Shown: in pieces, positions 2,978 to 41,828 of the stretch
Numbering within the stretch: position 1 is the first letter of the stretch
Layout of the letters: each line of letters starts with the position of its first letter
From: Fragilariopsis cylindrus CCMP1102
Lineage: Eukaryota; Bacillariophyta; Bacillariophyceae; Bacillariales; Bacillariaceae
Assembly (NCBI GenBank): GCA_900095095.1
Contig: FMBT01000300.1
Span: 434,001 to 498,000, forward strand
DNA: 64,000 bases
Reading direction: 5' to 3'
Position numbers and translations under genes: made by a program
Notes under the pieces: model-generated
The model's input: the letters and a program-made list of their open reading frames with translations, nothing else
What the model was told of the DNA's origin: nothing
Databases searched by the model: none

Positions 2978-4338
2978 CTATCTGTAACCGTATTTGGAAT
3001 TAGATTCGTAACCGTAACTCATATCCTTTCCACTATGGTTGTAATCATCACACACCATTTCACATTCTTCATATCCATAGTATCCCTTTCCCCTTTACCT
3101 CCCTTGCTACCACCGTAGTAACCACCGTAGCTGTCATCACCGTATCCACTACTGTAGTGACTACCATAGCTGTCTACACCGTAACCGTAGCTGTAATCAT
3201 CACTACCGTAGTATCCCTTTCCTCCTTTACCACCCTTACTACCACCATAGTATCCGCCGTAGCTGTCATCACCGTATCCACTGCTGTAACCATAGCTGTA
3301 ATCATCATCACCGTAGTAACCTTTTCCTCCTTTACCTCCCTTGCTACCACCTTCATAACAGATTTCGTAACATTCAGATCCGCCGTATTTCGAATCGCCG
3401 TAATCACCGTAAATCATATCCTTTCCACCATGCTTGTCACACACAACTTCACATACTTCGTACCCATAGTATCCCGTTCCTCCTTTACTACCTTTACCTC
3501 CTTTACCACCGTAGTAGCCGCCCCATGAGTCAGTTTCGTAGTATCCACCCCATGAGTCTCCACCTTTGGATCCTTTACCACCTTTGGATCCTTTACCACC
3601 GTAGTAGCCGCCCCATGAGTCAGTTTCGTAGTATCCACCCCATGAGTCTCCACCTTTGGATCCTTTACCACCGTAGTAACCGCCCCATGAGTCAGTTTCG
3701 TAGTATCCATCCCATGAGTCTCCACCTTTGGATCCTTTACCACCTTTGGATCCTTTTCCACCGTAGTAACCGCCCCAGCTGTCTACCTCGTAGTCGTAGT
3801 AGCCGCCCCAGCTGTCGCCTCCCTTGGATCCTTTACCACCTTTACTACCTTTGCCTCCCTTGCCACCACTTCCTTCGTGGCAGACTTCGTAACATTCAGG
3901 TCCGTATGATGGGTATGATGGCTTGTATTCAGGCACATTGTGCGATGATGAACCACCGTATTTGGAATCATCGCCGTATCCGTAGTAATCCTTGCCACAT
4001 ACCCATTCACATTCTTCATATCCATAGTAGCCTTTGCCTCCCTTTCCTCCTTTACCTCCCTTGCTACCACCGTAGTAACCACCGTAGCTGTCGTCGCCGT
4101 AACTTCCGTAACTCTCTACATCGTAACCGTATTCGTAACTACCGTAGTAACTACCGTAGTAACCTTTTCCTCCCTTGCCACCTTTACCTCCCTTGCCACC
4201 ACTTCCATCGTGACAGACTTCGTAACATTCAGGTCCATATGAATCGTCTGATTTTAACTTGCGTTCCACCGGTAATTCGGAGGAGAATACAGTAGCCACA
4301 AGGCTAAGCAATAGTACTGATAACGTTAATTTCATCAT
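2978..4338 (-). CDS. Secreted Lys/Gly/Tyr/Trp-rich repeat protein, cingulin/silaffin-like biosilica candidate
   Basis: The start is taken at 4338, where MMKLTLSVLLLSLVATVFSS is a clear signal peptide; the frame stays open upstream to 4563 but without secretory character. A basic ERKLKSDD stretch follows, containing an RKL site of the RXL type cleaved in silica-associated precursors. The rest alternates KGGKGGKGG/KGSKGG lysine clusters (K-x-x-K spacing), GYYG/DSWGGYY aromatic blocks, and cysteine-pair motifs such as ECYEVCH, CEWVC, CEVVC and ECYEIC. This is the layout of diatom cingulins (Y- and W-type) and related silaffins, which are insoluble organic matrix proteins of the frustule. A one-base deletion in the C run at 3090-3093 shifts the last ~35 codons; in the restored frame another YYGYEECE..C block follows and ends at 2978. 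Exact 3D role unknown. Confidence 0.7.
3520..3790 (-). repeat. In-frame tandem repeats of the cingulin-like gene
   Basis: Near-identical units of roughly 60-90 bp encode DSWGGYY/ETDSWGGYYGGKGSKGG. The nucleotide identity between units is very high, which suggests recent unit duplication. Confidence 0.8.
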
Positions 4339-6284
4339 TGTTGGGTCGTACCTGGAAGATTTGCAGTTAATTTTTGAAACGAAAAATAGGTTAGTTAGCG
4401 ACAGGTGAAATAACGAACGGTAAAGTCTTAAACGTCGACGACGACAACAACGACAACAACAACAGATCAATTGTGCATCAATAGTATTAAAGACCGTAGA
4501 CCAAGGACAATGGGGTACGACGAATGGAATAGAATCATCACATTCAAACAATTTCCATGCCATAGCAGGTGTCCTTTACAAGTGCTTGTACTTACTTTGT
4601 TGTCAAATTTTATTGAGATTTTGATTTTATGAATGCAAACAAGGTATGTAAAACAGTTTAAATCGATTGTGTTTTGAAAAAGTGATGTTTCGGAAGAGTG
4701 ATTTGATTTGTCACACACGACCGGCAAAGCAAGAGGCGCCAAAGTAATTCTTTAATTACTATAAAAATTGACATGCGGGTGTAAAGGCAGGCACAAGTCA
4801 TTAATATCATTACATAAGCCATATAACGTCAGACGTTGTGCTTCCTCGATAGTAAAAAAAATCAAACATCAGCGCGAAAATTGAATTAAATTTTAAAGTT
4901 TTTTTGAATTTCGGATTCTTTACGATTCGATTCAAATTTAGCAGCTATTCTAGTACTTCTCACAGAAAAACGAAAGATATACAAGTAGTTTCTTACTTGT
5001 ACTTGTTGATTTGTACTTTATTATTGTTAAGAGTTATTATTTTCTATCAATTGTTAGCATAGCTACAGGTTGGAAAACCAGTAATAGTTATAGAACATCT
5101 CATATAGTCTCAATAGTACTTGTACTGTAGATATATCTGCCTTAGAGTCTGATGGTATATATATATCTTCTTCATCTAATATTATAGTGATTAGTTGTTG
5201 TTATAGTTTACTATAAAACTGGAGCTGAGTTTTATCAGAATGAGAATCAAAATAGACTGCATGATTTTGTTGAAAATTACCTATATGGATTAGCTCAGTA
5301 AACATAACATCCAGTTCTAGAAAGACAAATAATATGGACCTTGCTTGCTTGTGACCAGTGTTGCTGTTGTTACGTGGATGGATTGGTGGACATCCTATGC
5401 TATTCTGCTTGGGTATTATGGATCCTGGTCTCTTTAGATGGTGGTCTATTAGATTCTATCTTCTGATGATTCTGTTTTCATATTATTGGCATCTTGTTGC
5501 TGCTGCCTGTTACTACATGATGATGCAATTAGTTGTTGTATACATGGTATGCTTTGCCTGACAATTTTTTTTTGCCATTTGCCTGTTGACACTTTTTTTT
5601 GCCTACCATCAAAGCTTACACCCAATACAAGTAACCTCATCCAACGCAACATGACAGTAGAATGATAATGGGATCACAGTGTGGTTTGCCTTCCATGGAG
5701 GACTAATCCACCTTACCTTGAAGATGATAGGTCCGGTTCAACCATACGGCTTATTGACTTTGATCTCTCTCTTCTGAATTCAGTAATTTCCCCTCATTAG
5801 TAATGACACTGTTGATGATTCAGATGATGTGTCTATGTACAGTATTCTTCACTTGTTTGACATTTACAAAGCAAACAAAGAAAGGCCGCATGCATGAATG
5901 TCTCAATTGTTCACTCAAGCAACAATCGTGCTGTTAGGAAACAACTGTCATTAATATCTCACTGCTGCTACATTACTATCAACCAGCATGACACATTATC
6001 AGTAATGCTATATATAGCTCTGTTAGCTCTGTTGCCATCACTCAGATCACACTTGAAAGGGATGTTTACTGTCTCTGTATATTTATCTTGAGTAAGCTTG
6101 AATTATTATCATCACCACTTCCCTTTTGGTAGACACAAAAATAGGTTCCAACAGAAGCACAAATAAAGGTAAGAAGAGCTATTGACATCAAATGGATTTT
6201 TGATTAGTTTGGTCATAGAAAAATATTGATATGTGATATACTTTGTTGTTGTTGCTATAATTTTTCTTTTACTGCACTACTATT
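4339..6284. other. Gene-poor region
   Basis: Includes the 5' flank of the cingulin-like gene and about 1.9 kb of AT-rich DNA. The short open frames here are scattered, lack codon regularity and match nothing I recognise. Confidence 0.5.
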
Positions 6285-7282
6285 GGCGCGTTCCAGCTCA
6301 AGGTGGTATTTTGTGGGACACTCGCGACTCAATTTTTGATATGCGCGATAGGCTCGCGACAGGAAAATTCTTTTAAATTATTAAGAGTTGGAATGGAAAA
6401 TTCCTTATTAACACATGAAAATGGGAATGTAATGAATCGAAGCATCATCAATATAGGTCCATTTAGCAAAAGCTTATGAGACGAAATATTTATATTCGTA
6501 CCGTTAAGAGAGGAAAAAAAATTGGGTGTGATTTAGTCATCTGGGGAAAATTCTATCAGGTCATATATGGGTGGCAGGCAGATTTTCGAATCGCCACAAG
6601 AGGTGCATAAGAGAGGAAGATTAAAAATTTAATAATGGACTAATAGATAAAGTGCTAATACAGATGTCTCTATTACTGTTATATTAGTTGATGCGATAAT
6701 TTTTATTGTTATTAGTACATTAAGAGAGGACCCATTATCATCGGGTATGTAGGACGTGTTTTTTTCGAAAATACGAAAATCATGTGTCTCTTGTTACAAG
6801 AGAGATTAAGTAGTTAAATTCAACCATATTCAGTCGAAATTTTTTGTGCTTGTTAAGAGTACCAATATCTATATTTCGCCTCATAAGCGTATGTTAAATA
6901 GACCGATATCCATGGAGGTTCGATTCAGTACATTCCCATTGTCATGTGTTAATAATGAATTTTCCGCCCTATTTACTGCATAGGTGCGCGGTGAATTAAT
7001 TATTTTCAACTTTGTCGGAGTACACCATATGGGGGAAATTCTACACAGATCACTAGCAGGGCGTTCCTGACACTACCTAGACCAGTCGACAATTTGGAAT
7101 GTGTAGAATCGACAGGATTAGGTACTGTAGAAGGTTTGAGGAGCTACCATACAGTTAAAAATCCCCCCGATTGATGGTACTTTCACTGCATAGCGCGTGT
7201 TAAACCAATCCCGCAAACAAGCGTCTGTCCGAAGATTGTCACACAGTAGCGAAAAACGGATCACATCCGCGCGGAACACGCC
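6285..7282. mobile_element. Probable non-autonomous DNA transposon (MITE-like) with terminal and subterminal inverted repeats
   Basis: The ends are GGCGCGTTCC (6285-6294) and GGAACACGCC (7273-7282), a 10-bp inverted pair with one mismatch. They are flanked on both sides by TATT (6281-6284 and 7283-7286), a possible 4-bp target duplication. Inside, 6393-6520 and 6841-6967 form a long imperfect inverted repeat; for example TTATTAACACATGAAAATGG in the left arm pairs with the right arm around 6934-6953. No transposase frame is present. The family is not identifiable by eye. Confidence 0.5.
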
Positions 7283-7286
7283 TATT

Positions 7287-9325
7287 GTGGCTGTAATTAT
7301 TGAGGAGTTTGCAATCTAGTCCTTTCAATTGCCTTTTTGGGAAAGATAGTCTATTGAGCCAAATGCCTGCAGGACTAAGCAGTAACAGAAAATGTGTTCA
7401 GAGAGATCCAGAAGAAGGGTTCAGTTACAATCATTTCCGTTGTGGACAGATGTACACTTTTGCCTGGGAAAAATGTTCAAACTTTTGACAAAAATGAGTG
7501 ACAAAATTTAGTTGTTGCCATGCAAATTTGTTCTCTGTTAAAACTGTAATACCAATAACATACCAACCAGAAAGTGTAAGTAAGTGCTGCTGTACAATAT
7601 GTTAATTATTTGTCCCTGGACAAACAAATTGTTACTTCTAGTTTTTTGACTGTCCCACTAGCATGTTCTGCATCTTTTTTGATGTACAGAACGCCTCCAG
7701 GTTGTCTTAAGGGTTCTCCCATATCATACCAGAATGGAGAACATTTGCTCATCACCATGATGAGTTGAGTATCATTGATAGTTTGGCTGTGGGTTAAATT
7801 GAAAGTTGAGCAAAACCAAAACCAAGCAATAAGAGTATAGTACCAGTCCAACCAAACTTCAAAACATTAAATGGAACATGATGATGGATACTTTTAGTAG
7901 AGGGAATGTTACTTATGGGGATTTGCATAGGTCCAATGCAATGTAACAAACAAAGAGAGTGATAGAAGAACATCCCAACTTTCCAACACCACCAACAACC
8001 AGCCAGTCCCTCAATTAATTCATGGAAAAATAATTGATAATAGACCAACAATTTCACTGTGAAATTTGATCTTGAATCTAAATTGGTTGCTGCTATTGAA
8101 CTGACTGATTCTTGTTCACTAAAGGTAATGGTACTCTATCATATTCATCTGATCAGTAGTAATGGATGTGATCAGTTTTGTTTTTCCATGGTGATGATGA
8201 ATTATTGTACACTTACAAATAAAACTTCCTTTGCATTGCGCTCAAATGAAAATACAGTTATTGAAAGCATTATGGAATTTTCTGTCAACATGACAATGGG
8301 AATTCAATTGACTGTATATTGATCTCTATCTGTATAGAGGTCCATTTAATGCAACAGCAGCACAGTAGGTTGGTGGAGCCACAACAAGGAAAACTGCTAC
8401 CAACCAATCAAGTGGCAGATAAAATAGCTGGTTAAGCTGCATTTAAATCAATAGGCAACAAAGTGTTACTCCTTTACTACTGTATTTTTTAATTCATTCG
8501 CGTATTTTTATCTTATTTTAAAATATGACAGCCATTTTGTTATTGCCTGCCCCCATTCATTGTCACATCACATCGTTGTCCTTATAATATAGGTGCAGCA
8601 ACATCAGTCAGTATCAACCTGGACTGCTTAATCATAGTGTGTTGTTAATTTAATTGAGCAGTTGAGTATTACTGATTCCAACAGAGCAATAACTTCAACA
8701 ACTAAATCTTCTTTTGTCGGTGATGATAGTTTTTTTTTTTTTTTTCCTTCCACATCTCACATACCAAAGTCAATTTGTTGTTGTTGTTGTTCAATGTATC
8801 CAGGTGAATATGCTTGATCATGTAAGGGTCAAGTCAAAGAGACAAAAGCATACAAAATATGCAAACACTAAGCACATTACCATGCTAAACATAAGATTTC
8901 TGAACACATGTTGAATCTCAAGTTGGGGGAATAAGACACGAACTGAGTACACTGAGTGACTAGTGACTGACTAACATAGTACAAGTAGATATGATACCCA
9001 ATAGTGAGCAACTAAGCTCACATTTCTAATGAACACTACTTGCATACAATAGTTTAGGAAGTCTACAGTCTACTATTGGGCCTTAGGTAGCTAGACACGT
9101 TGAGAACATTATCTTTCATTCTGTGGGAAGATAATACATATTTTTGAATAATTTAGTTTCTTTTTGATGTTTCGGTTGAAGATAAGAAAGCAAATCTCCC
9201 AATCTAATAAATTAAAAATAATAAATCAATCATCATCAAATCATCAAATTACAATCAAGACCACAAGCATCTGGGCATCTCATCGTTCATCTTTAGTATT
9301 ACTATGACGTACGACTTCAGAAGTA
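7287..9325. other. Gene-poor region
   Basis: No convincing gene. Several frames of 60-90 codons occur on both strands but show no domain or splice context. It may contain decayed repeat sequence. Confidence 0.4.
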
Positions 9326-27953: not shown

Positions 27954-29771
27954 ATGATGCAGATGCAATTCCAATATAATTCCGACTATCCGGGCCTTTC
28001 ATCAGCAGCTTCAACTTCGGCGTCTGCTGCTTCTGCGTCTACGCCTTCGACGGTCCCTCAAACAAACGGTCAAGATCCGCAACAATTTCCACCTGCGGAA
28101 CCCATACCATGTGCTCGCATTACAACTCGAGTTTTCCATCCTACCCGGAATCAAGTAGCTACCGTACAAAATGTACTGATACGGACCATGAACAGCGTAC
28201 CGGTAGTTGCAGCGAGAGGAGGGAACAACAACAACAACAATGGCGGTAAAGATAAAAATGACGATGTCGATTCTCTTAGTAGTAATATGTCATCGTCTTC
28301 GTCATCGTCCTCCTCTGACGATGACAGTATGATTCTCGATGACGACGACGATGATGCTGATGGTGCTGACATCAACGGTCGACCTTCCTTGTCCTCACGG
28401 CTACCACAACAATTTCAGAATCAAAATGACGCCGATGAAATCAAACATGCATATTGGATACAACGGACCATTCGAGAGGCGATATACGGCCGGGTTTTAT
28501 TTGCTGTCATACTCAAACGAAGACCTAGGTCTTTGGTACTGAAGGATGGAGCTGAGTGGGAGGTTACACCCGATCATTGTGCCGTCAAAGAAATGTCCTG
28601 GCAACATATACGACGAGATCGGGATAGACTAGCAGAAGATCCAATTAAAGAAGTCTCGTCGATGCAATATTTAAATCGTTGTTGGCGTGAAGAACGTCAA
28701 CAACAAGAACAGCAACCGCAGCAGCAGCAACAACAAGAGAATATCATCAGTAATGATCACGCTGACGTGATCCAATCATTTTCGGCTATGAGAGATACTA
28801 ATATCATGATGCCACTGGATTTATTATCAGACGAGCGGAATTTATACAGTATCATGCCATATTGCGATGGGGGTGAACTATTCGAACGATTAGATCTTAA
28901 TGAACGGTTTTCCGAAACTGAAGCACGGTATTGGATGGATCAAATATTGAATGTAAGTCAAAAGAAAAAGTGAATAGATTTGAAACAAAAGCAAAGATAG
29001 ACTTCTCTTTCCCCCAATCCTGAAAAGAAATAATAACAAAAATTAAATAAATAAATAATTGAAATTATGTCTCTCACCTTGTCGTTCGTAATTCATACAA
29101 TCCATTCTATTCAGGGATTGGAGAACTTGCAAAAAAATGGGATATGTCACCGGGATATGAGTTTGGAAAATCTATTAGTACACAAAGATGGAGCATTGGT
29201 CATTGATATGGGTATGTGTCTACTCGTTCCCTACTGCGAAGAGGATCCGACAAGTCTCGCAGTATCTTTTGATAATATGAAAATGAATGGAGGGCAAAAT
29301 GGAGGGCAACAACAAGGATCGGTAGTCACCGCAGCAAATAATCAACAATCTTTACCGAGCAGAATTTCAGTGTGTTGTGGACTTGGAAGACTTGGACGGC
29401 GTCATCTTATCAGACCGCAGGGAACGTGTGGGAAATGGATATACATGTCACCCGAAATATACCGAAATGAAGAACCATTTGATGGATTCGCTGTAGATAT
29501 GTGGGCTACCGGTGTTATTCTTTTTCTTATGCTTACGGGTTTCCCTCCGTGGGAACGAGCCTGTCAAACTGACGAACGATTCCATTACATGACGGCTGGG
29601 TATCTAGTGCAAATGCTTACCGAGTGGGAAATTGGATTAAGCAGCGACGGAATGGATTTGTTACAACGGATGCTATTTTTAGATCCAAAGGATCGACTTA
29701 GTCTAGATCAGGTTCGTGCTCACCCATGGATGGTCAACGGACGTCGAGAACACCCGTCAGGTCTCAAATAA
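27954..29771 (+). CDS. Serine/threonine protein kinase with DMG in place of DFG
   Basis: Exons deduced as 27954-28952 and 29115-29771 (phase 0), about 551 residues. The open frame extends a little upstream of 27954, but only from a GTG; ATG at 27954 is chosen. Residues 1-145 are disordered (Ser/Ala, Asn, Asp runs). The catalytic domain has a weak glycine loop (EAIYGRV), CAVKEMSW (VAIK Lys), IKEVSSM (helix C Glu), HRDMSLEN, IDMGMC (DMG instead of DFG), a long activation segment with an insert, MSPEIY (APE) and DMWATGVILFLMLTGFPPW. The hinge and C-lobe look CAMK-like. An insert with a Q run separates helix C from the hinge. All catalytic residues (Lys, HRD Asp, DMG Asp) are kept, so activity is likely. 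Substrate unknown. Confidence 0.85.
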
Positions 29772-30262: not shown

Positions 30263-31669
30263 CTATATATCTTCCCAGTCGTCGTCAACTTGTGCAATTT
30301 CTTGGCACTGTAGTACAATTCTGATGGGATCGAATGAGCTCGGGATTAAATCATACAATTGTTTCGTCGATGCCGTCTTGAGATCTTCTAGAGAGAAGGA
30401 GTGATATACTTCATTTAATTCTTCGTTCCAAACATCAAACTGGATTTCTAATTCTTGAGCAGTAAGTCTCTCTTGCCACTCGGAGGGAAATTCTTTTATT
30501 TTGGCCTCTTCGATATCAGGGTTGCTGTAAATTCCCTCTTCGAGTGATAATGATTCTTTCTTCGCTACGACAATATTCTTGGATTTGCCTGTAATGGCAT
30601 TGACCACAGAAATAATCGGTGGAATAGATTGAGGAAGTCCATCATCGCCAGGTGGATACTCTCCTGTCTTTGGAATAATCTCTCCAAAATAATGCATGTT
30701 ACGAATTGTTTCTGGATCGAACTTGGCTGGTAAGTCGTTGAGCGAGGGCCACGTACTAGGGTCATCTTCTTCAATAGACCAATGTTCGTAACACCATTCG
30801 TCGTCGGTCTTATTTGACTTCCAGTATTCACATAGAAATATATACTGTTCCTTTGTTAGCGCGTGGTAAAGCTCACAGTCAGGATTATGGAACGATCGTT
30901 TAACGAATTCCTCTGCTCGTAAATTTGCAGCTTGGATACCTCCCTTTTTGAAGACCTTAAGGTACCGTGATTGAGAGCATGTTGAACCTGACGTTGTAAT
31001 ACTGTTTTGGTCATGGTCGTCAAACTGCTCATTCTTTTTTCCTACATCTTTTTTGTTGCGTGATTTCTTCCCTCGTAATCTATATGATAATGTAGGATCA
31101 ACCGTTGTGATACGCCAAGATGTATTTTTGGCCTCGTTCTCATCTTGTAGTTGCAGTTGATCCATATCTATTTCAATATCAAAATAGCATCGAGAAATTT
31201 TTTTGATGACTCCTACCACCAGCGGAACGAGCAAGGACCCGCGGTGTGAGAAATAATGTACCATTATAGCACCTGTTTTTGATTCTTCGTCGTCTTCGCT
31301 CCAGAAAACGGGAGCCACGAAGCCCTTAGGGTAAGACGCCTGTAGATGATCATGGAGGGAATTTAAATTCGATAACCAATCACGGAGATTTGAGCCCAAA
31401 CATTCGAGAACGTTGGAGTATCCATTATCATGTACGTAATCTATAAAATAGTCGCCGAAGGCAAATAGTACGTCATCCACTGAAATCCCCAATACTTCCG
31501 CAGCAGCTACGACAAGTTCAACCGTATCTTTATCTTCGTAATATTTGTACCTCAGAAATCCACCGTCTTCAACCTCACATTTCGCCACTTTTTTGATTGC
31601 AGTCCAAGTTTCTTCGCCAAACTTGCTGATTACGAGGCATTCCGTGCAATCGTTGATCCAACCAAACAT
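30263..31669 (-). CDS. H-NOX (heme NO/O2-binding) protein with C-terminal novel shared domain
   Basis: 468 residues, single exon. Residues 1-175 form an H-NOX (HNOB) domain like the N-terminus of soluble guanylate cyclase beta: MFGWINDCTECLVISKFGEETW, LGISVDDVLFAFGDYF, LGSNLRDWLSNLNSLHDHL, and YFSHR. His106 in SLHDHL is the expected proximal heme ligand, and Tyr139-Ser141-Arg143 form the YxSxR heme-propionate motif, so heme binding is expected. A lysine-rich linker (200-245) and an aromatic Trp-rich region (250-335) follow. Residues ~352-456 are a domain not known to me, ending in SFSLEDLKTASTKQLYDLI...IRIVLQC, that also occurs twice in the divergently transcribed histidine kinase next door. 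No cyclase or other enzyme domain is attached. Whether it prefers NO or O2 cannot be told. Confidence 0.92.
   Translation of the reverse strand: MFGWINDCTECLVISKFGEETWTAIKKVAKCEVEDGGFLRYKYYEDKDTVELVVAAAEVLGISVDDVLFAFGDYFIDYVHDNGYSNVLECLGSNLRDWLSNLNSLHDHLQASYPKGFVAPVFWSEDDEESKTGAIMVHYFSHRGSLLVPLVVGVIKKISRCYFDIEIDMDQLQLQDENEAKNTSWRITTVDPTLSYRLRGKKSRNKKDVGKKNEQFDDHDQNSITTSGSTCSQSRYLKVFKKGGIQAANLRAEEFVKRSFHNPDCELYHALTKEQYIFLCEYWKSNKTDDEWCYEHWSIEEDDPSTWPSLNDLPAKFDPETIRNMHYFGEIIPKTGEYPPGDDGLPQSIPPIISVVNAITGKSKNIVVAKKESLSLEEGIYSNPDIEEAKIKEFPSEWQERLTAQELEIQFDVWNEELNEVYHSFSLEDLKTASTKQLYDLIPSSFDPIRIVLQCQEIAQVDDDWEDI
30302..30616 (-). other. Novel ~105-residue domain, copy in the H-NOX protein
   Basis: Covers residues ~352-456 of the H-NOX protein. 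Shared pattern with the kinase copies: an N-terminal strand with Asn/Lys-Thr/Ser-Lys, L..IY.N, K..F/W, then E-I-x-hydrophobic-x-V-W/L-(D/N), S-[FYI]-S-[LI]-E-D-L-K-x-x-S-T-x-x-L-[YF]-x-L and a terminal [RQK]-[IL]-V-L-Q-C. Confidence 0.8.
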
Positions 31670-33057
31670 CGTCTTGAATTATTTATATCTCCGTGTTGAA
31701 GAGAGACTGATCGCTTTCTATGTGCTTTGTGTTTTGTTGTGGAAAGAACAAGATGTCAGCAGAAGGGATGAAAACGTGAAGCTTTCCGTTAAGAGAGTAC
31801 GCATTGTTAAATAAGAATGATAAGGTATTCATGGTTTTGTTTTTTGCGCAACACCTAAATAACCCGATAAGAATTCTTTAACGCACACACCAAAATCAAT
31901 ATTATAATCGATTGTTATTATGAAGTGATAACAAATTATTTCCTAGTTATACAGTATAAGATATAAATACATACATACATACATACATACATACATACTG
32001 CAAAGTTACGGAAACAATAGTTGTGGTGGTTTATTGAACTACACATGCAGATGATTGCAACAGTCAGAGCTAGTTGCTTATCATGATAATTTATTGCTGA
32101 TATGTGATGTGCGTGCATTAAGAGATGGTAATGCAGTAAACAATAGATTTTTACAGTATTCAACACGAGATTTTTTGTGGATTTCACTTTGCAAGCTTGA
32201 TGGGGTGTGAAAATACAAGAAGCAAGTATGCTGTAGAATGTGGTTTCTTCTATTTGATATGGAATAATTAATGTCAATGGGTGTGCATGTTCTGTTTCTG
32301 TTTCCTCTCTCTCCTAACATGTGATAAGAATTTCAATAGCGGATGTGGCTCCCCCCATTTATTCATGACCATGATTACATATTGCATATACTTTTTATTT
32401 TCTGCAAATGATGTTGATGTTGATGTTGATGATGATTTTGCCGCTTCACTGCCACAGCCCTTTCCTTTCCCAAATTCCCCAAATTCAATAGGCATCAACA
32501 ATCAGCTACCACTTTGCTTTGGCTGCCATTTTGAATATTACTGGCATTGGCATTGGCATGGCATCTCCATATGGTAAGTGCGAGAATGAAGGAGAAGGCA
32601 AGATCATGAGATGAGAAGGAGAAGAATAAACACGAAGGTATGATTGTTGATGATATTGAGTACATTCCATATTACAGTTTACGATGTCAGAGAGTCCCTA
32701 AAAATAGTTAAACATAACAGTCCCGAAGAACATACCGTAATTATCCGTTTTCGTAATCCTAGTGAAGGCGCGATTTATGGCAAATATAATCAGTACAATG
32801 TAGTAACTTTAAGTACCGTAGGACCTACATCAGTAGACTGCGATTACGTCATATATATTCAATATTACGGTAGTGCGATATTTGTGATGAACGATTCTTG
32901 AATTGAAGGATTGCTGAAGACCGACAAGAAAAGAAAACAAAACAAAATGACAACAAATAGTGAACAACAATAACTCACCCGTAACGTCTACTAGCTACAG
33001 TAGCACGAGATACGAGATACTTATTCTGTAATACTGTAATACAGTAGCCAGTACTCA
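31670..33057. promoter_or_regulatory. Divergent intergenic region between H-NOX and histidine kinase genes
   Basis: 1,388 bp separating two starts that face away from each other, so it must hold both promoters. Contains an (ATAC)8 microsatellite at 31967-31998. No open frame here has domain or coding character. Co-regulation of the pair is inference. Confidence 0.4.
31967..31998. repeat. (ATAC)8 microsatellite
   Basis: Eight perfect ATAC units in the divergent promoter region. Confidence 0.9.
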
Positions 33058-36000
33058 ATGTTGAAAGACGAAACGACGGACTTCCTGCGCGATGAGGAAA
33101 AATTAGAATTACCAGCATCAGCAGAAACACAGAATACATCAGTTGGTGACTGTAGATCAAAACGATCAACCGAAAGTAAAACAATCTCTACACGATCATT
33201 GAGCAAATCATCGAGCAAGGTCTCCCTAACTTGTAGTCTGAATCTCGATTCGTTTGCTCTCCGAAATTCTTCCAACGTTTCGTCCCTCGAGCTCGATGAG
33301 TCGACGACCGGTACTCCTTGGATAGATGAAGGGAGAAGTGTTTTATGGGAGGACGCACAAGAACGAGAACAAAAGGAAGAACAAGATCCGGAAAAGCAGA
33401 AGATCATGGCAACCGATTGTAGTAATAATAGTGACATCGCCTCCGTCTCTGCCATCAAGACCACGTTAAGAGTGAGGGTGATCAATCAAATATCCAAATG
33501 TTATAAAGATCTGTTGGTAGAAATTCGGAATGATTCAAATCTATTCGGTGCAATCTACAACAACAAGGGAGTCAAAAAGGCTAACTGTCGAAAATGGTGT
33601 GCCTCGACGACCCAGCTCGTAAAGGCATCGTCACATGAAATTCGATGTGCAGTATGGGATGACATTGTGAACTCACCATGTCATACATACTCGATAGAGG
33701 ATTTGAAACAAACTAGTACCAGACAATTGTATCAGCTCGTTGGCCCGGAAAGTGATCTAATAAAATTGGTCCTGCAATGTGTAGCAAAGACATCCTATCT
33801 ACGATCATCGGAAGTACCGATAGGCAACGGAAATGAATCACCAAGAAAGATCGATGTGGGTACCACCTCCAGATTTAACCATCCACCCCTTTTATCAGGA
33901 AATGGCATCTTCCAGTGTCCATTTTCGGGCATCGCCATCGACGAATCAATCATTCTAGATTTTGTTGAAGATCAAAACAGCAACAAAGAAATGGCTCCTC
34001 CCCGTCCCTCGAATAATATAAGCCAACCCTTTCCCACAAACGACGTAATAAGTGATTATGATGATAACGACAATAGTACGATACGGACTGATTGCACTGA
34101 TACTGTACGTCCTTTGAATGACACACTTTCCATAAAGAGTATGAATACACAAACAACCATGAGAATCAAAATATCGAACAAGTCAACCAAGAGGTATAAG
34201 AATCTAGTTGTCGACATTAAAACTGACTTGTTTCTTTTTGAAAGTGTTTATGAAAACTCGGTCGTCAAAAGCGCTCAAGTTCGGAAATGGAGACCTGATG
34301 TTGTAAGGGATGTGAAGAAAAATATTGCGGAGATACAATGCGTCGTGTTGGATGGTAGTGCAAGTCTAAACGTAGTTCAATCCTATAGTTTGGAAGATCT
34401 GAAAACCATAAGCACTAGCGATCTATTTGAGTTGGCTCAGGGTAACGATCCTGTTCAGCTCGTTCTTCAATGTATCAAAAAGCACTCTTTGTGTGGAGTG
34501 GTCGAAAAGAAACTAACAGGCATCGACCTTCCTAGAGCATCATTGAAACTTCGAAAAGGTTTGCCTCGCGCAACAACTTCAAACTATAAATCAAGAAGTG
34601 AACCATCGATTACAAAGCTTCCAGTTAGTACCAGGAGGTCTGGTCGGCCGAATCATATGAATCTTTCGGGGTTAGCTAATGCATCCTTTGGAAATACAGA
34701 AAATATAAGTAACAGAACAATTTCGCATGTCGATCACAACTCAAATTCGATGGTTGCCACTGATGGGGGAACAACGTCATATGATGATAAATCCCTCACG
34801 AAGCCGTCCGGATCTAGAACGGGAAGCGAGTCATTTTGTTTAGGGAACTACCTCCCGAAGTTCTCTCCGTATAAGATCACTCCTTTGACCAACGGAGAGT
34901 CAAAAAATAAGAATTATCCAAAACAAGATGGCAGCGATACAAAAAGTTGTAGAAATGATCTACCTTCTGTTTCTAATCCTAGCTTTCAACAGAGTAGCGT
35001 ATCGACAGATCCCGCGCTACTTATGCTCCACCTGCTTCAACCTATCCTCTTATCCGCCTCACATAGTGTTCCTCTTCTTGGTGCTGAGAGTGGCAAAAGC
35101 CTTGCACCACGAAGATCTTCTACAAGTGATATCATTTGTAGTACACGCATACAAAAGGATAAAATAAATGAATTTAGAAGACTGTGTGGGTCGAAAGAAG
35201 GGTTACAACAGCAGAGTGGTGAGTCACTTCATAAACTAGAAACAACCTCTAACGTGGGGCCAGCATCATTAGTTGGAACAAAAAATGCTACATCTCAACT
35301 TGGATCAAACAGCCCGACTCCAAGAAGTAGCAAAAAGATAAAAAGTACCTATAAGATAAATCGATTTCTTCAGTTCGGTGCCAGTAGAAAGATGCACTCT
35401 GAGGGACCAACAAATGAATCCAATCCATTTTCATCTACCAAAAGCCCTTCTAATGGAGCTCAAGCCAAAAATCAAATTAACAGCAAGAATAACATTCCTC
35501 CGGTATCAGAAATTAATGTCATTAAGGGTAGCTCAAATCTAGAGCCACCATCGGTAAATGCACCAAATATCTCGCTATCGGGCGACCTTGTGAAGAAAGT
35601 TTTCCCCTACCATATTGTAATTAACGAAGACTTTCGCATTCTTCAAGTTGGGAACAGTCTTTCTATACTAGTGGACGAAGGTGAAATTATTGGAAGATGC
35701 ATCAGTGAGATTTTAATGATAACTGGGCCAATACCTTCATTTGGAAATTGGAATTGGTCCATACTTGACAAAATGAAAGATAAGACAATTTTCCTAGAAG
35801 GTGTTCGTGAAAAATCTTATGACCAGAAAGCTAAAATCAAGGGCACAATCATTGAATTATCAAATGTACCTGAAAGACAGATTTTGCTTGCATTATTTCC
35901 AAACGTAAAAAACTTATCAGAGCTTGAGAGGATGAATTTGTCAATGACAGATCTACCTTTGCATAGCTGTCAACGCGAGGCAGTCCTTCTTGGTGAGCAT

Positions 36001-38049
36001 AGCAAGTCTGAGATCAAATTGACAAATCATCTTGATCACCTACACAGAGAACTAATTGATTCGATGGAGAAACAGATTGAGGATCGTACTAACGAACTAG
36101 CCACTGCAAATATAAATCTGGAAAAAGCTAATGCCCAGCTAGCTATTCAATCAGCCAAACAGCTCCAACATTTTGCCTGCATGAGCCATGAGGTGCGTAA
36201 AGTTTTACAAGTACTTCCGAAGCTGTTGGAGTATGAGGTTACTATTATTATCATTAATTTTTCTCTTTTTCTCCCCTTCACCATTTTTGGTCAGCAATGA
36301 CGAAACTCGACTTACAACCATTCTTCTTCTATGATACCGGTGTATCTCTTTCATTTAATATAAACATTACAGATACGTACTCCATTGAATTGTATTGTTG
36401 GTATGTCATCTTTATTGCTAGAAGACGACGGTCCAAGCATGGATCCAATGCACGCTGACTCCATTCGAATGATTAACACAAGCGGGGAGTTGTTGAGTGC
36501 TGTTGTTGATGATGTTCTTGATTATGCTAAGCTTGAATCAGGCAGTTTCGAAGTGGATATTGGGCTGACCAAACTGCAAGATACTCTTGATAGTGTTTTA
36601 TACTCAATTACACAGAAGATGCAGGAAAAAAATATACGTATTCGGACTCATTTTTCTCCTACAGTGCCATTGTATCTTGAAACAGATTCTCGCCGGCTAC
36701 AACAAGTATTGTTTAATCTGCTCGGAAATGCGGGGAAATTCTCCAAAATAGATAGTGTAATTGACCTGAGTGTAAGTCTGGTGAAGGCCTATAGGGATGA
36801 TGAAAATAATGATACTATTCGATTTTCGGTTAAGGACTATGGAAAAGGAATCGATAAAAAAGATTTTGAAACAATTTTTCAGCCATTTTCTCAAGCAAGT
36901 AAAGAGACACAAAATGTGTACGGAGGTACTGGTCTTGGTTTAAGCATTACATCGAAACTAGTACATCGCCTTGGTGGAAAAATATCTCTTGATTCTGAGC
37001 TTGGCAAGTACGCTGATTTCACAGTCGATTTACCAATGAACGGAAGATATGTCGATATTCAGAAAATTTCAGGTTGCTTGAAAAGCACAACTATTATATT
37101 GATCGAGCCGAAACAGATATATGACTATTCCTTTACGCATTTCCCGATTAGAGAGGAATCCCTACCACTCGGTCCAGCTGTTATCGAGGTTTTTGGTCTT
37201 AACATTATTCGCTGTAACACTTTGAAGGAATTAAACGGTAAAATCTCAGCGAAGAACGATAGTAGACTTCACGAACACTTCACCCTCCTAATGCATGAAA
37301 CTTTGTACGAAGTCTGTTCGTCTGAAAAACTTGACTCGATATTAGGTCAGCCAAAATGCTACTCCTTGATGACGTATGGACAGAATTTCTTGGTGGAAAA
37401 GACGAACGCTTGCCACTTTAAGTCACTAACTGGGCTCTTTCCAGCGACATTACTCGAAGCCATAACGAAACAAAATTCTACACAAAACCAGATGGAAATT
37501 AGTTGCCCAACGAGCTCAAAATTTGCAACAATACTACAGACTCCAGTTACTTCCAACGCCACGAAATTTACCAGCAAAGATGGATTATCGGCACCGCATC
37601 TCACTTCAGAAGGAAAAATGACATCGGCGTCGGCAAAAACAACAACAAAGAATCCTGGAAATATAACCAAGGTGTTACTCGGTAAACTTGATTTGAAAGT
37701 TCTGTACGCAGAAGACAACATCGTCAATCAAAAAGTTCTTGCTCGAGTCTTGAATCGTTATGGTATCACTGACATCACAATTGTGGATAATGGGAAAAAG
37801 GCGGTGGATATTTCTGCGAAAACGAAGTATGATTGCATTCTACTGGATATGCAAATGCCAATTATGGGTGGCATAGAAGCTTGTGAGTTAATAATGGATC
37901 GTGATCCAGACTCAAAAATAGTGTTTGTTACTGCACATGCTTTGGACGAATTTAAAGTCAAGGCCAAATCCGTAGGAGCGATCGGTTTTATTTCAAAACC
38001 TTTTCGAGTCGGGGACATCGATGAAGTTTTAAGAGAAATTTATACGTGA
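33058..38049 (+). CDS. Hybrid histidine kinase with HNOBA (sGC-type PAS) sensor and two novel domains
   Basis: Exons 33058-36192 and 36373-38049 (phase 0), about 1,603 residues. Order: two copies of a novel domain (~136-243 and ~366-474); long Ser/Asn-rich linkers; HNOBA domain from ~842 (VKKVFPYHIVINEDFRILQVG ... DLPLHSCQREAVLLGEH), as in guanylate cyclase; a ~60-residue coiled coil; HisKA with phospho-acceptor His1044 in CMSHEIRTPLNCIVGM, the intron falling right after SHE; HATPase_c with LFNLLGNAGKFS (N box), VKDYGKGID (G1), FQPFSQAS (F) and GGTGLGLSI (G2); a receiver-like region without an obvious Asp (~37080-37480); and a receiver with Glu-Asp (YAEDN), Asp1537 (LLDMQMP), Thr (FVTAHA) and Lys (ISKPF). 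All catalytic motifs are present. The domain set implies a gas-responsive phosphorelay kinase, its H-NOX partner encoded next door. No membrane helix seen, so cytosolic. Confidence 0.93.
33463..33786 (+). other. Novel ~105-residue domain, kinase copy 1
   Basis: From LRVRVINQISKCYKDLLVEI through EIRCAVWDD and YSIEDLKQTSTRQLYQL to IKLVLQC. It aligns over its full length with kinase copy 2 and with the C-terminus of the H-NOX protein. Confidence 0.8.
34153..34479 (+). other. Novel ~105-residue domain, kinase copy 2
   Basis: From MRIKISNKSTKRYKNLVVDI through EIQCVVLDG and YSLEDLKTISTSDLFEL to VQLVLQC. In the SLEDLKT core it is closer to the H-NOX copy than copy 1 is. Confidence 0.8.
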
Positions 38050-38745: not shown

Positions 38746-40240
38746 TTAGGAAGGTGCCTGTTCGATTAATTTATATGTCTGAAATGTCCGTCGAACAACA
38801 GTACGGACATCCTCTACTCCATGAAGAGTTGTCAGGAATCGTTCTAATTTCAATAGCTCGGTATCATTTCGGTCATCGAACCATGATTCAATTGGTATCC
38901 CATTGTCGACTTGGTACCCAAATGCATGAGGGGAGTTATCGACCAGAACCGACTTCTTCAGGTCTCTTCCTAAGACGTTTAGGTCCTTCAAGAAGTTCCC
39001 TTCCACAGAAAGGCAAGAGTCACGAAACATTCGGTGTTTGATATACTTGTGATCTGGAATAGTAGAATGGAAAGGAATAATCATTAGACATTAATTAAGT
39101 TGTGTGTACTGAGAAGTGATGTGTACCGCACGACAAAGATGAAGAATTCGAAATAAAAAGAAATATATAAATTTCACACAATAACGTCGATCGATCCGAT
39201 CAAACATTCTCTTCCAGTACAAAGTTATTTTAGTTCTTCTTCTTCTTCTTACCTGGATCAATGAGATCGAGCAATGCGTCAGCGTATACTTGCTGGCTTG
39301 CTGTAAATACAATAACCTCAAATTTTTTGCATATCTTTTCCAGAAATTCTGTCAGATGGGGTCTCAAACGAACATACACTTGATATGTCATTCCGTGAAA
39401 TTCCACGGGGAAGGTTAAATCAGCGTTATCACAGGCCTCAACGGTACAATGAACAAGTGTTTCATCTAGATCAAGGACGAGTGAGATAGGTTTCGCATTA
39501 ATATCCTTAGACGGTAAGACAGCCGTTGGACACAATGACTTGACATTTTCGTAGCTTGGTAGCGATTTGATAAATGCGTATGGGTTAAATTCATCCTCTT
39601 CTTCTTCCTCTTCTGATCCCTGTGAGGAACCTTCGTCCGCTTCAACTAAGACAGCATCTTCTGGTTCGTCATCTAATTGATGTGCTAAGTCTACCACTAC
39701 ATCCTCTTCCGTTGGATGGTCATCATCTTCTTCGTCCTCGTGACTTACCGTCTTGTGTTGTGAAGAAGCTGAGGAAAGTTTAGAATCATGGGTTTCGACA
39801 TCTTCTTCTTCTTCACGATCTAATTCTCCTCCTTCCTCGTCGTCTGCACCTGCCAAAAACTTCAGCATGGGACTAAACATAGCATCGACGATCTTAGAAG
39901 CGGTTCCCTGACCACCCCCCTCAACGACTTCTCCTCCTTCCTCACGTATTTCTTCTTGAATGACCAAAGGACGAGCCGGATGCATCGGACTTAATTGTGC
40001 CCGATCAAAAGTGCTGTTAGAAACAGCAGCTCTTGGCGTGGATGGATTCTTCATATCCAATGGGGTTGATGGGAGGCCCATAGTAGTAGTAGTAGTAGTC
40101 TGTTGTGCGCCGCCGCCACCTCCTCCTTGAATACTCGATCGTGGCCGTTTGGCCGATGCTATAGGAGTATTAGGGAGTGCATAGTTATTGTTATTCCGTG
40201 GAGCCCGACTAGGAGTTTCTCCACCCGCTGGGCTAGTCAT
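38746..40240 (-). CDS. FCP1/SCP-like (NLI-interacting factor type) protein phosphatase
   Basis: Exons deduced as 39253-40240 and 38746-39053; the 199-bp intron splits a GAT codon (LIDP|DHKYIKHRMF), giving about 431 residues. ATG at 40240 (MTSPAGG) is chosen over an upstream in-frame ATG whose leader is low-quality. These phosphatases remove phosphate from Ser of the RNA polymerase II C-terminal domain or other nuclear substrates. The catalytic LVLDLDETLVHC holds the DxDxT nucleophile; VRLRPHLTEFLEKICKKFEVIVFTASQ, the FRDSC block, and VLVDNSPHAFGYQVDNGIPIESWFDD complete the domain. The N-terminal ~230 residues are disordered, with Gly, Thr and acidic runs. Family placement is firm; substrate is not shown. 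Confidence 0.92.
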
Positions 40241-41828
40241 TGTGTGATTAATGATTTTAGAGAGAGAGAGAAAGAAAGAGATGGAGTAGTGCGAGTGCGA
40301 ATGTGATCTATCAGCACACTCAATTCGACTGTTTTCTTTTTTTCTTTTGTTATTCAGAAAAATTATAAGAATTAGTCCAAGCAAGAAAGAATGCAATCTG
40401 GAAGAAACGTTCGAAAGCGATAGTATCTCTCCTCCGACTACCTCTTTTCAATGAAAGCTGAGCAAAAAGGAAGATATATGGAAGGCGTGTACAATGTAAC
40501 GTTACTTCAAGTATTTTTTATACTACTACCTAATTGCAATAACACCGTTTAGCTATATGTGTATGGTACAAGGTAGGCCAAATTGATTGACCTAGCTATG
40601 ATGTGTATCGTGTGTCGTGATGGATGAATACCAATCAGATGAGAATTTGCATTTTTGTTCGGTTATAAAGGCGGAGTCAGGCAGGGCACGATGCCGGCGC
40701 GTTATTTGAACACCGTTTGTCCGCAATTGAAAATGAATGACTGTGTACTTCAAGTACTTTGATAATAACAAAAATAAACAATAAATGTTCAAGTCCAATT
40801 GGAATGAATCCATATCTCTATCAGCTATCCATTACAGTACAGTATATGTGTGCATGAAGAATGATCTTTGTGTATTGTACAAAGCAGCCTGTTTTCCCTA
40901 CTGGCATCAATTAGTTAGTCAACCAATACCAAGAAGAAGTCTACGAAGAGGCTCCAAGAAGCCAGCAGCAGCAGTGTTCTTCCTTCTAGCTAGACTTCTT
41001 ATGCCATTGGTTGAGAATAAACCTACTGCTCCTCCTGCTGCTACTGCTGCTACTGCTGCTACTGCTGCTACCATGCCAATGTATTCTCTGTCAGTGTCAA
41101 TTCTTTTACTCCTGTGAACTTGCTACAAACAACAATGCAACGCAATCGCAAGTGAGTGTTATGTTGTGATTGAAAACATTTTTAATGGAACAATGAATGG
41201 TTGACACCAATTAGTTCATTGATCTGCCAATATTTTCACAGCCAGACGAATTCAAATCCAATGCCTTATATGAATTCAGCTCTGTGGTTCAGTCCCAATA
41301 TAGTCAAGACAGGATCATTCATCATTGCTGCCATGCCAGGGTAATGGGGAGGAGTAGAGGAGAGAAGTTTCTGGCTTTGTATATCAATGCTAATGCTTAT
41401 GCTGATGACACTAGCCATAGCCAATCTGATCTAGATTCCCACACCAACACCAACATGTTCGTCTTTGGAAATAACTGTCATATTACTAGTTCAGTACTAG
41501 CTAGTACTAGATTTCGTATTTCACATTACTAGGTCCGACAAACTTGATAAATAATTATGACCCCTGTAAATAATGTCCCCCTTTTACAAGAAGGACTGCC
41601 TTAAAAAACCTAGCGCTTTCACTTTTTTCCAAAAAATATCTTTTATTATTTGTTCTTTAAGCAAAATTAGTATCTTCGATCTTCGATCTTCGCCCTTCGC
41701 TTGCTTATTCTCACTACTAGTATCGTAGTCACAGTAACTTTTACCTTGTACACACACCAAAAATGCCTACCGTACTACTTTGCATCCACGGGCAATAAAC
41801 AGTGTAAAATCTGCTAGTGAGTATCAAC
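40241..41828. other. Gene-poor region
   Basis: 5' flank of the phosphatase gene and about 1.3 kb of sequence without supported genes. A (CTGCTA)n run lies at about 41035-41070. Confidence 0.45.

Follow-up and report, generated by a model that had tools for sequence, protein, structure and literature searches.

Can the gas sensor of a soluble guanylate cyclase (sGC) be divided between two neighbouring genes and be coupled to a histidine kinase in a diatom? This question is raised by a locus of Fragilariopsis cylindrus in the window (the whole stretch of 64,000 nucleotides that was analysed), where an H-NOX gene on the minus strand and an HNOBA histidine kinase gene on the plus strand are divergent neighbours with 1388 bp between their starts (Table 1). 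The same gene pair was found on contig C30, which is 99.9% identical over 9.9 kb and probably represents the other haplotype. The H-NOX copy on C30 carries a 2-nt insertion that shifts the frame, which reflects either a mistake in the assembly or a defective allele; on contig C80 both genes of the pair are intact.

Table 1. Features of the H-NOX/HNOBA kinase locus (positions in the window)
Feature	Position	Strand	Evidence
H-NOX gene, single exon, 468 aa	30263..31669	-	ORF; HNOB match; in-frame stop upstream at 31679
Shared domain, H-NOX copy, aa 353-455	30305..30613	-	sequence comparison
H-NOX (HNOB) domain, aa 3-170	31160..31663	-	Pfam, alignment
YFSHR (YxSxR), residues 139-143	31241-31255	-	alignment, motif position
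His106 codon	31352-31354	-	alignment, motif position
Divergent intergenic region, 1388 bp	31670..33057	no strand	ORF ends
Kinase gene exon 1, ATG 33058	33058..36192	+	in-frame stop upstream at 33037
First kinase copy of the shared domain, aa 139-241	33472..33780	+	sequence comparison
Second kinase copy of the shared domain, aa 370-472	34165..34473	+	sequence comparison
HNOBA (PAS-like domain plus signalling helix), approximately aa 848-1010	35599..36087	+	Pfam
Coiled coil from aa 993; C265-kinase homology starts there	36034..36183	+	sequence comparison
Kinase intron, 180 bp, GTGCGTAAAG...AACATTACAG (GT-AG)	36193..36372	+	HisKA score after splicing
Kinase exon 2: remaining HisKA, HATPase, receiver	36373..38049	+	Pfam profiles, motifs
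HATPase	36685-37038	+	Pfam
Receiver with Asp1537	37699-38031	+	Pfam, motif

An earlier note on this DNA had described an H-NOX domain with His106 and YxSxR in the minus-strand protein and an HNOBA-coiled coil-HisKA-HATPase-receiver layout in the plus-strand protein, and had proposed profile searches for HNOB and HNOBA. Both searches gave significant matches, and the described positions, profiles and motifs were found. The HNOB profile of Pfam matched residues 3-170 of the minus-strand protein with E=8.5e-36 and 123.8 bits (cut-off 25.5 bits), and in the alignment His106 and YxSxR correspond to those of human and Manduca sGC beta1 and of Nostoc H-NOX, with P120 conserved as well. The H-NOX domain is followed by about 150 aa without relatives and by a C-terminal domain that is shared with the kinase. 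Having the profile match, the proximal histidine and YxSxR, the protein is assigned to the H-NOX/HNOB family and is predicted to bind haem and NO.

The kinase gene has two exons and encodes 1603 aa. HNOBA was matched on exon 1 in two stretches (E=2.1e-21; 3.1e-21 on the spliced segment), HATPase with 5.8e-25 on exon 2 and 5.4e-25 on the spliced segment, and the receiver on exon 2 with E=1e-24. The intron interrupts the H-box (SHE|IRTPLN), and joining the exons improved the HisKA E-value from 1.2e-4, below the cut-off, to 3.1e-14, which supports the two-exon gene model. The catalytic motifs SHEIRTPLN, NLLGNAGKFS, DYGKGID, GGTGLGL and DMQMP are intact, and with its H, N and G boxes and the receiver Asp the protein is, by motifs and profile matches alike, a hybrid histidine kinase. 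The genome also encodes an HPt protein.

A domain of about 105 residues, which the earlier note had missed, occurs once at the C-terminus of the H-NOX protein and twice at the N-terminus of the kinase. Identity is 33-36% between the two genes and 33-41% among all copies. Chance likeness was ruled out: the pair scores of 168/146/209 compare with maxima of 47/56/52 in 1000 shuffles per comparison, and the genome-wide searches gave E=2.3e-13 and 1.2e-10 with the H-NOX copy and 4.0e-14 with kinase copy 1. These two genome searches detected the domain in no further gene (next E 1.7), nor was it found in the exons of the one-chain cyclase described below or in a related hybrid kinase of the same genome (C265). 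It had no credible match among known Pfam families (best E 0.019, below cut-off), a profile comparison with PDB sequences yielded nothing credible (best E 2.8), and no relatives of the domain or of the diatom H-NOX were confirmed among viral contigs. Third codon positions are conserved least, indicating that constraint at the protein level was kept despite divergence. The shared domain, a new finding here, is indirect evidence for an interaction of the two proteins, which it probably tethers; its predicted structure was poor (mean pLDDT 53.6, too low to interpret), so that the docking role is suggested by co-occurrence rather than by a structure.

According to the earlier note, the alga splits the sGC sensor over two genes and replaces the cyclase by a kinase. 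This holds for the pair, which has two genes and a kinase output and is itself not a soluble guanylate cyclase, but not for the organism: a one-chain H-NOX-HNOBA-cyclase-phosphodiesterase gene (sGC-PDE) lies on another contig (C628), so the cyclase was not replaced there. Animal sGC and the alga's own sGC-PDE resemble the pair in their PAS-helix layout and join its H-NOX and HNOBA parts in trees. They differ in being one chain, which ends in a cyclase in animals and adds a PDE to the cyclase in the alga, whereas the diatom pair has two chains and a kinase at the end. In the trees, the H-NOX and HNOBA parts of the pair cluster first with the genome's own sGC-PDE (100/98 and 100/97) and next with animal sGC (100/99 and 100/97), in a sampling with few eukaryotes and long diatom branches, where two fast rows might be drawn together and where the bootstrap of the H-NOX tree had not settled.

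Bacterial precedent, cited by the earlier note as H-NOX beside a kinase, is closer than stated there, since in some cyanobacteria the gene that directly follows H-NOX encodes a histidine kinase with HNOBA, including direct HNOBA-HisKA-HATPase kinases. A scan with Nostoc H-NOX gave 10 loci; a pattern scan of prokaryote genomes for HNOBA confirmed nothing. The Nostoc H-NOX is Alr2278, and the PAS structure of the Nostoc kinase is 2p04. Of 27 distinct HNOBA stretches from cyanobacteria, 23 have H-NOX directly upstream; nine of the 27 come from loci chosen by H-NOX, and among the other 18 the number is 14. The diatom pair has the same adjacency of separate H-NOX and HNOBA kinase genes. However, the cyanobacterial genes share a strand and their two domains are 75-296 nt apart, while the diatom genes are divergent; their H-NOX frames have about 190-250 aa compared to 468 aa; the shared domain is absent from all 917 ORFs of these loci; and in the H-NOX tree their proteins form a clade of their own, to which the diatom protein does not belong. 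In the proteobacterial H-NOX/HnoK systems of Shewanella and Caulobacter, H-NOX is likewise described as acting in trans on the kinase next to it; the diatom kinase has HNOBA and the shared domain.

Such an operon could have been acquired by the alga and inverted later. The arrangement of some cyanobacteria would fit this, as would the HNOBA tree, in which the eukaryotic rows adjoin two cyanobacterial rows (87/93). Yet the sensor parts of the pair fall with eukaryotic sGC and not inside the cyanobacterial rows, the shared domain is missing from the ORFs of the cyanobacterial loci, and the kinase module is matched far better by a resident kinase: its identity with the C265 kinase is 44% over 653 aa, starting at aa 993, compared to 31-33% over about 300 aa with six cyanobacterial HNOBA kinases, and the two diatom kinases pair up in the tree of the kinase core (96/93). 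The C265 kinase has the same module from coiled coil through receiver, but another N-terminus of its own, two receivers, no Pfam match to HNOBA and no shared domain. We therefore regard acquisition of the operon as highly improbable, and from the eukaryotic grouping and the likeness to the resident kinase the design seems to have been invented anew out of eukaryotic parts. Much earlier, the sensor parts of sGC may nevertheless have come from cyanobacteria, according to PMC1435932.

How the pair arose may be read from its domain order. H-NOX-linker-domain on one side and domain-domain-linker-HNOBA-kinase on the other resemble one chain cut in a three-domain array. In a scenario whose chances we consider evenly balanced, a one-chain sGC-type receptor would have been cut inside a repeated linker domain and its HNOBA half fused to a histidine kinase already resident in the genome; as a docking module private to the two halves, the linker domain would now reunite them, giving NO control of a phosphorelay beside the cGMP branch on another gene. 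The same resemblance is compatible with proteins that are neighbours by descent and no longer cooperate after such a break, with the shared domain a mere linker remnant and H-NOX working alone or with another partner. This is unlikely, because the domain copies kept their protein-level constraint while diverging, neither gene is broken on C80, and HNOBA otherwise partners H-NOX in cyanobacteria, also outside the loci selected by H-NOX.

We favour, with a probability of roughly two in three, a two-chain gas receptor that the algal lineage assembled from eukaryotic components. This reading builds on the domains, residues, gene model, shared domain, sGC grouping and kinase origin read from the sequence, from which we infer haem and NO binding, docking, the direction of regulation and the downstream relay. 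The H-NOX protein would bind haem through His106, with a pocket favouring NO over O2, and would dock on the kinase via the shared domain (one sensor copy, two kinase copies) and via a second contact between H-NOX and HNOBA, as known from sGC. Binding of NO would break the Fe-His bond and shift H-NOX on the PAS domain of HNOBA; through the signalling helix this change would reach the HisKA dimer instead of a cyclase. Autophosphorylation of His1044 would thereby be altered, and with it transfer to Asp1537, a separate HPt protein and response regulators.

The choice of ligand is suggested by the distal pocket. The distal position is the non-polar L150 in the diatom H-NOX, aligning with V in its own sGC-PDE, M in Nostoc and I, the distal residue, in human beta1. 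The alignment has no distal tyrosine in the diatom protein, making O2, which the earlier note had allowed as an input, unlikely; O2-sensing H-NOX has such a residue, Tyr140 of Thermoanaerobacter, according to PMC1435932. Alternatively, the pair might sense CO or redox state. No NO synthase match was obtained in the diatom genome, but nitrate reductase or neighbours can likewise supply NO. CYG11 of Chlamydomonas responds to CO and not to NO, as stated in PMC8728061, so predicting the ligand from sequence is fallible, and for bacterial H-NOX proteins activation by oxidation is reported in PMC12329717. Against this, the distal pocket is non-polar as in NO-specific sGC, and we consider CO or redox sensing improbable.

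The pair is a candidate NO receptor with a phosphorelay output rather than cGMP, in a cell that also has a one-chain sGC-PDE. As sensor and output of an sGC-type receptor are separate here, the signal from H-NOX to HNOBA could be studied in trans. The pair also suggests the convergent assembly of one receptor design in bacteria and algae.

The earlier note had placed an H-NOX domain on a minus-strand gene and HNOBA, HisKA, HATPase and receiver domains on its plus-strand neighbour, and the Pfam profile searches it proposed bore this out. The H-NOX protein matches HNOB (E=8.5e-36) and carries His106 and the YxSxR motif (residues 139-143) at the positions given in the note. The spliced kinase segment matches HNOBA (3.1e-21), HisKA (3.1e-14) and HATPase (5.4e-25), and the receiver of the same gene was found at 1e-24. 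Both genes have an in-frame stop upstream of the start, and the gene starts of this divergent pair lie 1388 bp apart. A copy of the pair on contig C30 (15.5 kb) is 99.9% identical and is probably the other haplotype. Its H-NOX gene goes out of frame near codon 26 through a 2-nt insertion, which reflects either an assembly error or a broken allele. The pair is flanked by a protein kinase domain fragment, which stops some 490 bp short of the H-NOX gene's 3′ end, and by an NLI-interacting-factor-like phosphatase downstream of the kinase gene.

Coordinates of the gene pair, its surroundings and related loci
Feature	Location	Strand	Details
H-NOX gene	window 30263-31669	-	468 aa
HNOBA kinase gene	window 33058-38049	+	two exons; 1603 aa
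Kinase intron	window 36193-36372		GT-AG ends; interrupts H-box
QCPFSG motif	window ~33910-33935	+	between shared-domain copies 1 and 2
Protein kinase fragment	window 29067-29771	+	Pkinase E=2.2e-23
Phosphatase	window 39230-40396	-	NIF E=1.8e-24
2-nt insertion in C30 copy	L012 2409-2410 (window 31593)		
sGC-PDE	L011 (C628:51001-60000), about 3968-8583	+	
C265 kinase	L092, 58-4944	-	1628 aa
Shared domain, H-NOX protein	aa 353-455		
Shared domain, kinase copy 1	aa 139-241		33% identity to H-NOX copy
Shared domain, kinase copy 2	aa 370-472		36% identity to H-NOX copy

When searching the assembly (67.9 Mb, 818 contigs), HNOB was matched three times: in the window, in the C30 copy and on contig C628. 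On C628 the H-NOX exon continues into the beginning of HNOBA. The exon after it completes HNOBA and opens a guanylate cyclase domain; the end of that domain and PDEase_I are encoded further on, by another exon. This exon series has the layout of a one-chain soluble guanylate cyclase with a phosphodiesterase (sGC-PDE). By its domains, sGC-PDE is a second haem gas sensor, one whose single chain both makes and degrades cGMP. HNOBA gave seven matches at E<=0.1, four of which are the two HNOBA halves, once in the kinase gene of the pair and once in its C30 counterpart; the others are C628 and two weak matches below the cut-off, on C182 and C379, that cover only the helix preceding a cyclase. Silicon transporters were matched 27 times in the assembly, some matches being haplotype duplicates or separate exons of the same gene; their presence marks the source as a siliceous alga and almost surely a diatom.

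The sensor parts of the pair group with those of eukaryotes. In the H-NOX tree (29 rows), whose bootstrap had not settled (0.986), the pair joined its own sGC-PDE (100/98) and then animal sGC beta1 (100/99), separate from the 25 cyanobacterial rows. Likewise, in the tree of HNOBA (31 rows) the pair joined sGC-PDE (100/97) and then animal sGC (100/97), with two cyanobacterial rows next to the eukaryotic ones (87/93). For both trees near-identical rows and short fragments were removed and other eukaryotes were represented by PDB sequences only; long branches were flagged for the sGC-PDE H-NOX and for the HNOBA of the pair, respectively. The H-NOX of the pair shares 53% identity with that of sGC-PDE, 39% with either of two animal sequences and 32% with Nostoc. 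For its HNOBA the figures are 36% with sGC-PDE and 26-28% with three animal sequences.

The kinase module (aa 993 onward) is 44% identical over 653 aa (498 bits) to a kinase on contig C265 of the same genome, and this likeness spans the HATPase-receiver interval too. Against six cyanobacterial HNOBA kinases it showed 31-33% identity over about 300 aa (135-151 bits); when all cyanobacterial ORFs covered by the analysis were compared with the pair's kinase, the best reached 171 bits, with HNOBA within the aligned stretch. The two diatom kinases were joined at 96/93 in a kinase-core tree of 19 rows, two of them diatom, in which long branches, including the pair's kinase, were flagged. Fusion of sGC-type sensor parts to a resident kinase is the simplest account of how the pair arose. 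The C265 kinase, the closest relative found in the genome, is a hybrid that bears two receivers; its long N-terminus has no Pfam match.

Ten cyanobacterial loci matched the Nostoc H-NOX, and HNOBA was present in all nine genomes examined out of the ten carrying them. In a sample of 292 genomes from the phylum, HNOBA was matched at E<=1e-3 in 39 (32 of these over the cut-off). Many matches were restricted to the C-terminal helix; by inspection of the matches, the PAS part was reached in 17 of the 292. After removal of near-identical ones, 27 distinct HNOBA stretches remained in the loci cut out, nine from loci chosen for H-NOX and 18 seen with only ~1.5 kb of flank. H-NOX lay directly upstream on the same strand in 23 of the 27 (14 of the 18 not chosen for H-NOX), at a domain spacing of 75-296 nt. 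No H-NOX gene was seen within the ~1.5 kb flank of the HNOBA stretches L070, L057, L059 and L060. Six HNOBA proteins were scanned with Pfam: four are HNOBA-HisKA-HATPase kinases of 482-560 aa, the fifth is a hybrid kinase truncated where the locus stops, and the sixth a GGDEF protein; beyond these, one full hybrid HNOBA kinase of 1325 aa was found. Since some cyanobacterial H-NOX genes adjoin HNOBA kinases, the split design as such is already known in bacteria, where Iyer et al. reportedly described it in 2003.

The proteins of the pair also share a domain of ~105 residues, whose two copies in the kinase are 41% alike. Genome searches with two of the three copies, which could miss weak or intron-split ones, returned only the pair and its C30 copies (next match E=1.7). 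Alignment scores against the sGC-PDE exons and C265 were no higher than the shuffled-sequence range, and the domain profile had no match among 917 ORFs of the cyanobacterial loci. The 155 aa preceding the domain in the H-NOX protein returned only themselves from the genome. Agreement between copies was 0.48-0.58, 0.53-0.61 and 0.23-0.36 at the first, second and third codon positions; the third is least alike, so constraint is at the protein level and the duplication an old one. The order of parts in the pair is that of one chain cut within a three-domain array. The shared domain, for which the AlphaFold model was poor, may dock the H-NOX protein and the kinase to each other. CPF-G motifs occur in linkers of both receptors, as QCPFSG in the kinase and as TCPFTG, ECPFVG and ECPFGG after H-NOX in sGC-PDE; haem can be bound by Cys-Pro pairs.

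In the known mechanism, the coiled coil is the part that straightens. Bacterial H-NOX acts in trans on a partner kinase, whose autophosphorylation it inhibits when it has NO bound (PMC12329717), and Shewanella HnoX/HnoK are tabulated as such partners (PMC8846402). The pair holds every element that would be needed for combining coiled-coil straightening with trans control of the kinase by NO-bound H-NOX. No segment of the kinase is a strong transmembrane candidate, the highest hydropathy over 19 residues being 1.42, so the predicted complex is likely soluble. HPt was matched on two contigs, each time by a single short hit (E about 1e-4) that clears the cut-off, and the genome search gave no match to NO synthase.

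Among the papers listed in a search of chiefly non-subscription journals, none describes a eukaryotic H-NOX/HNOBA histidine kinase pair in its title or abstract opening; diatom guanylate cyclases responding to mating cues have been reported (PMC5485032). The observation of the gene pair is confirmed and extended, and its earlier interpretation is partly supported: an sGC sensor split over two genes, with a kinase replacing the cyclase, holds for the pair but not for the organism, in which C628 keeps a one-chain cyclase. With sGC-PDE and the HNOBA kinase both in its genome, the alga therefore has two branches, one through cGMP and one through a kinase.
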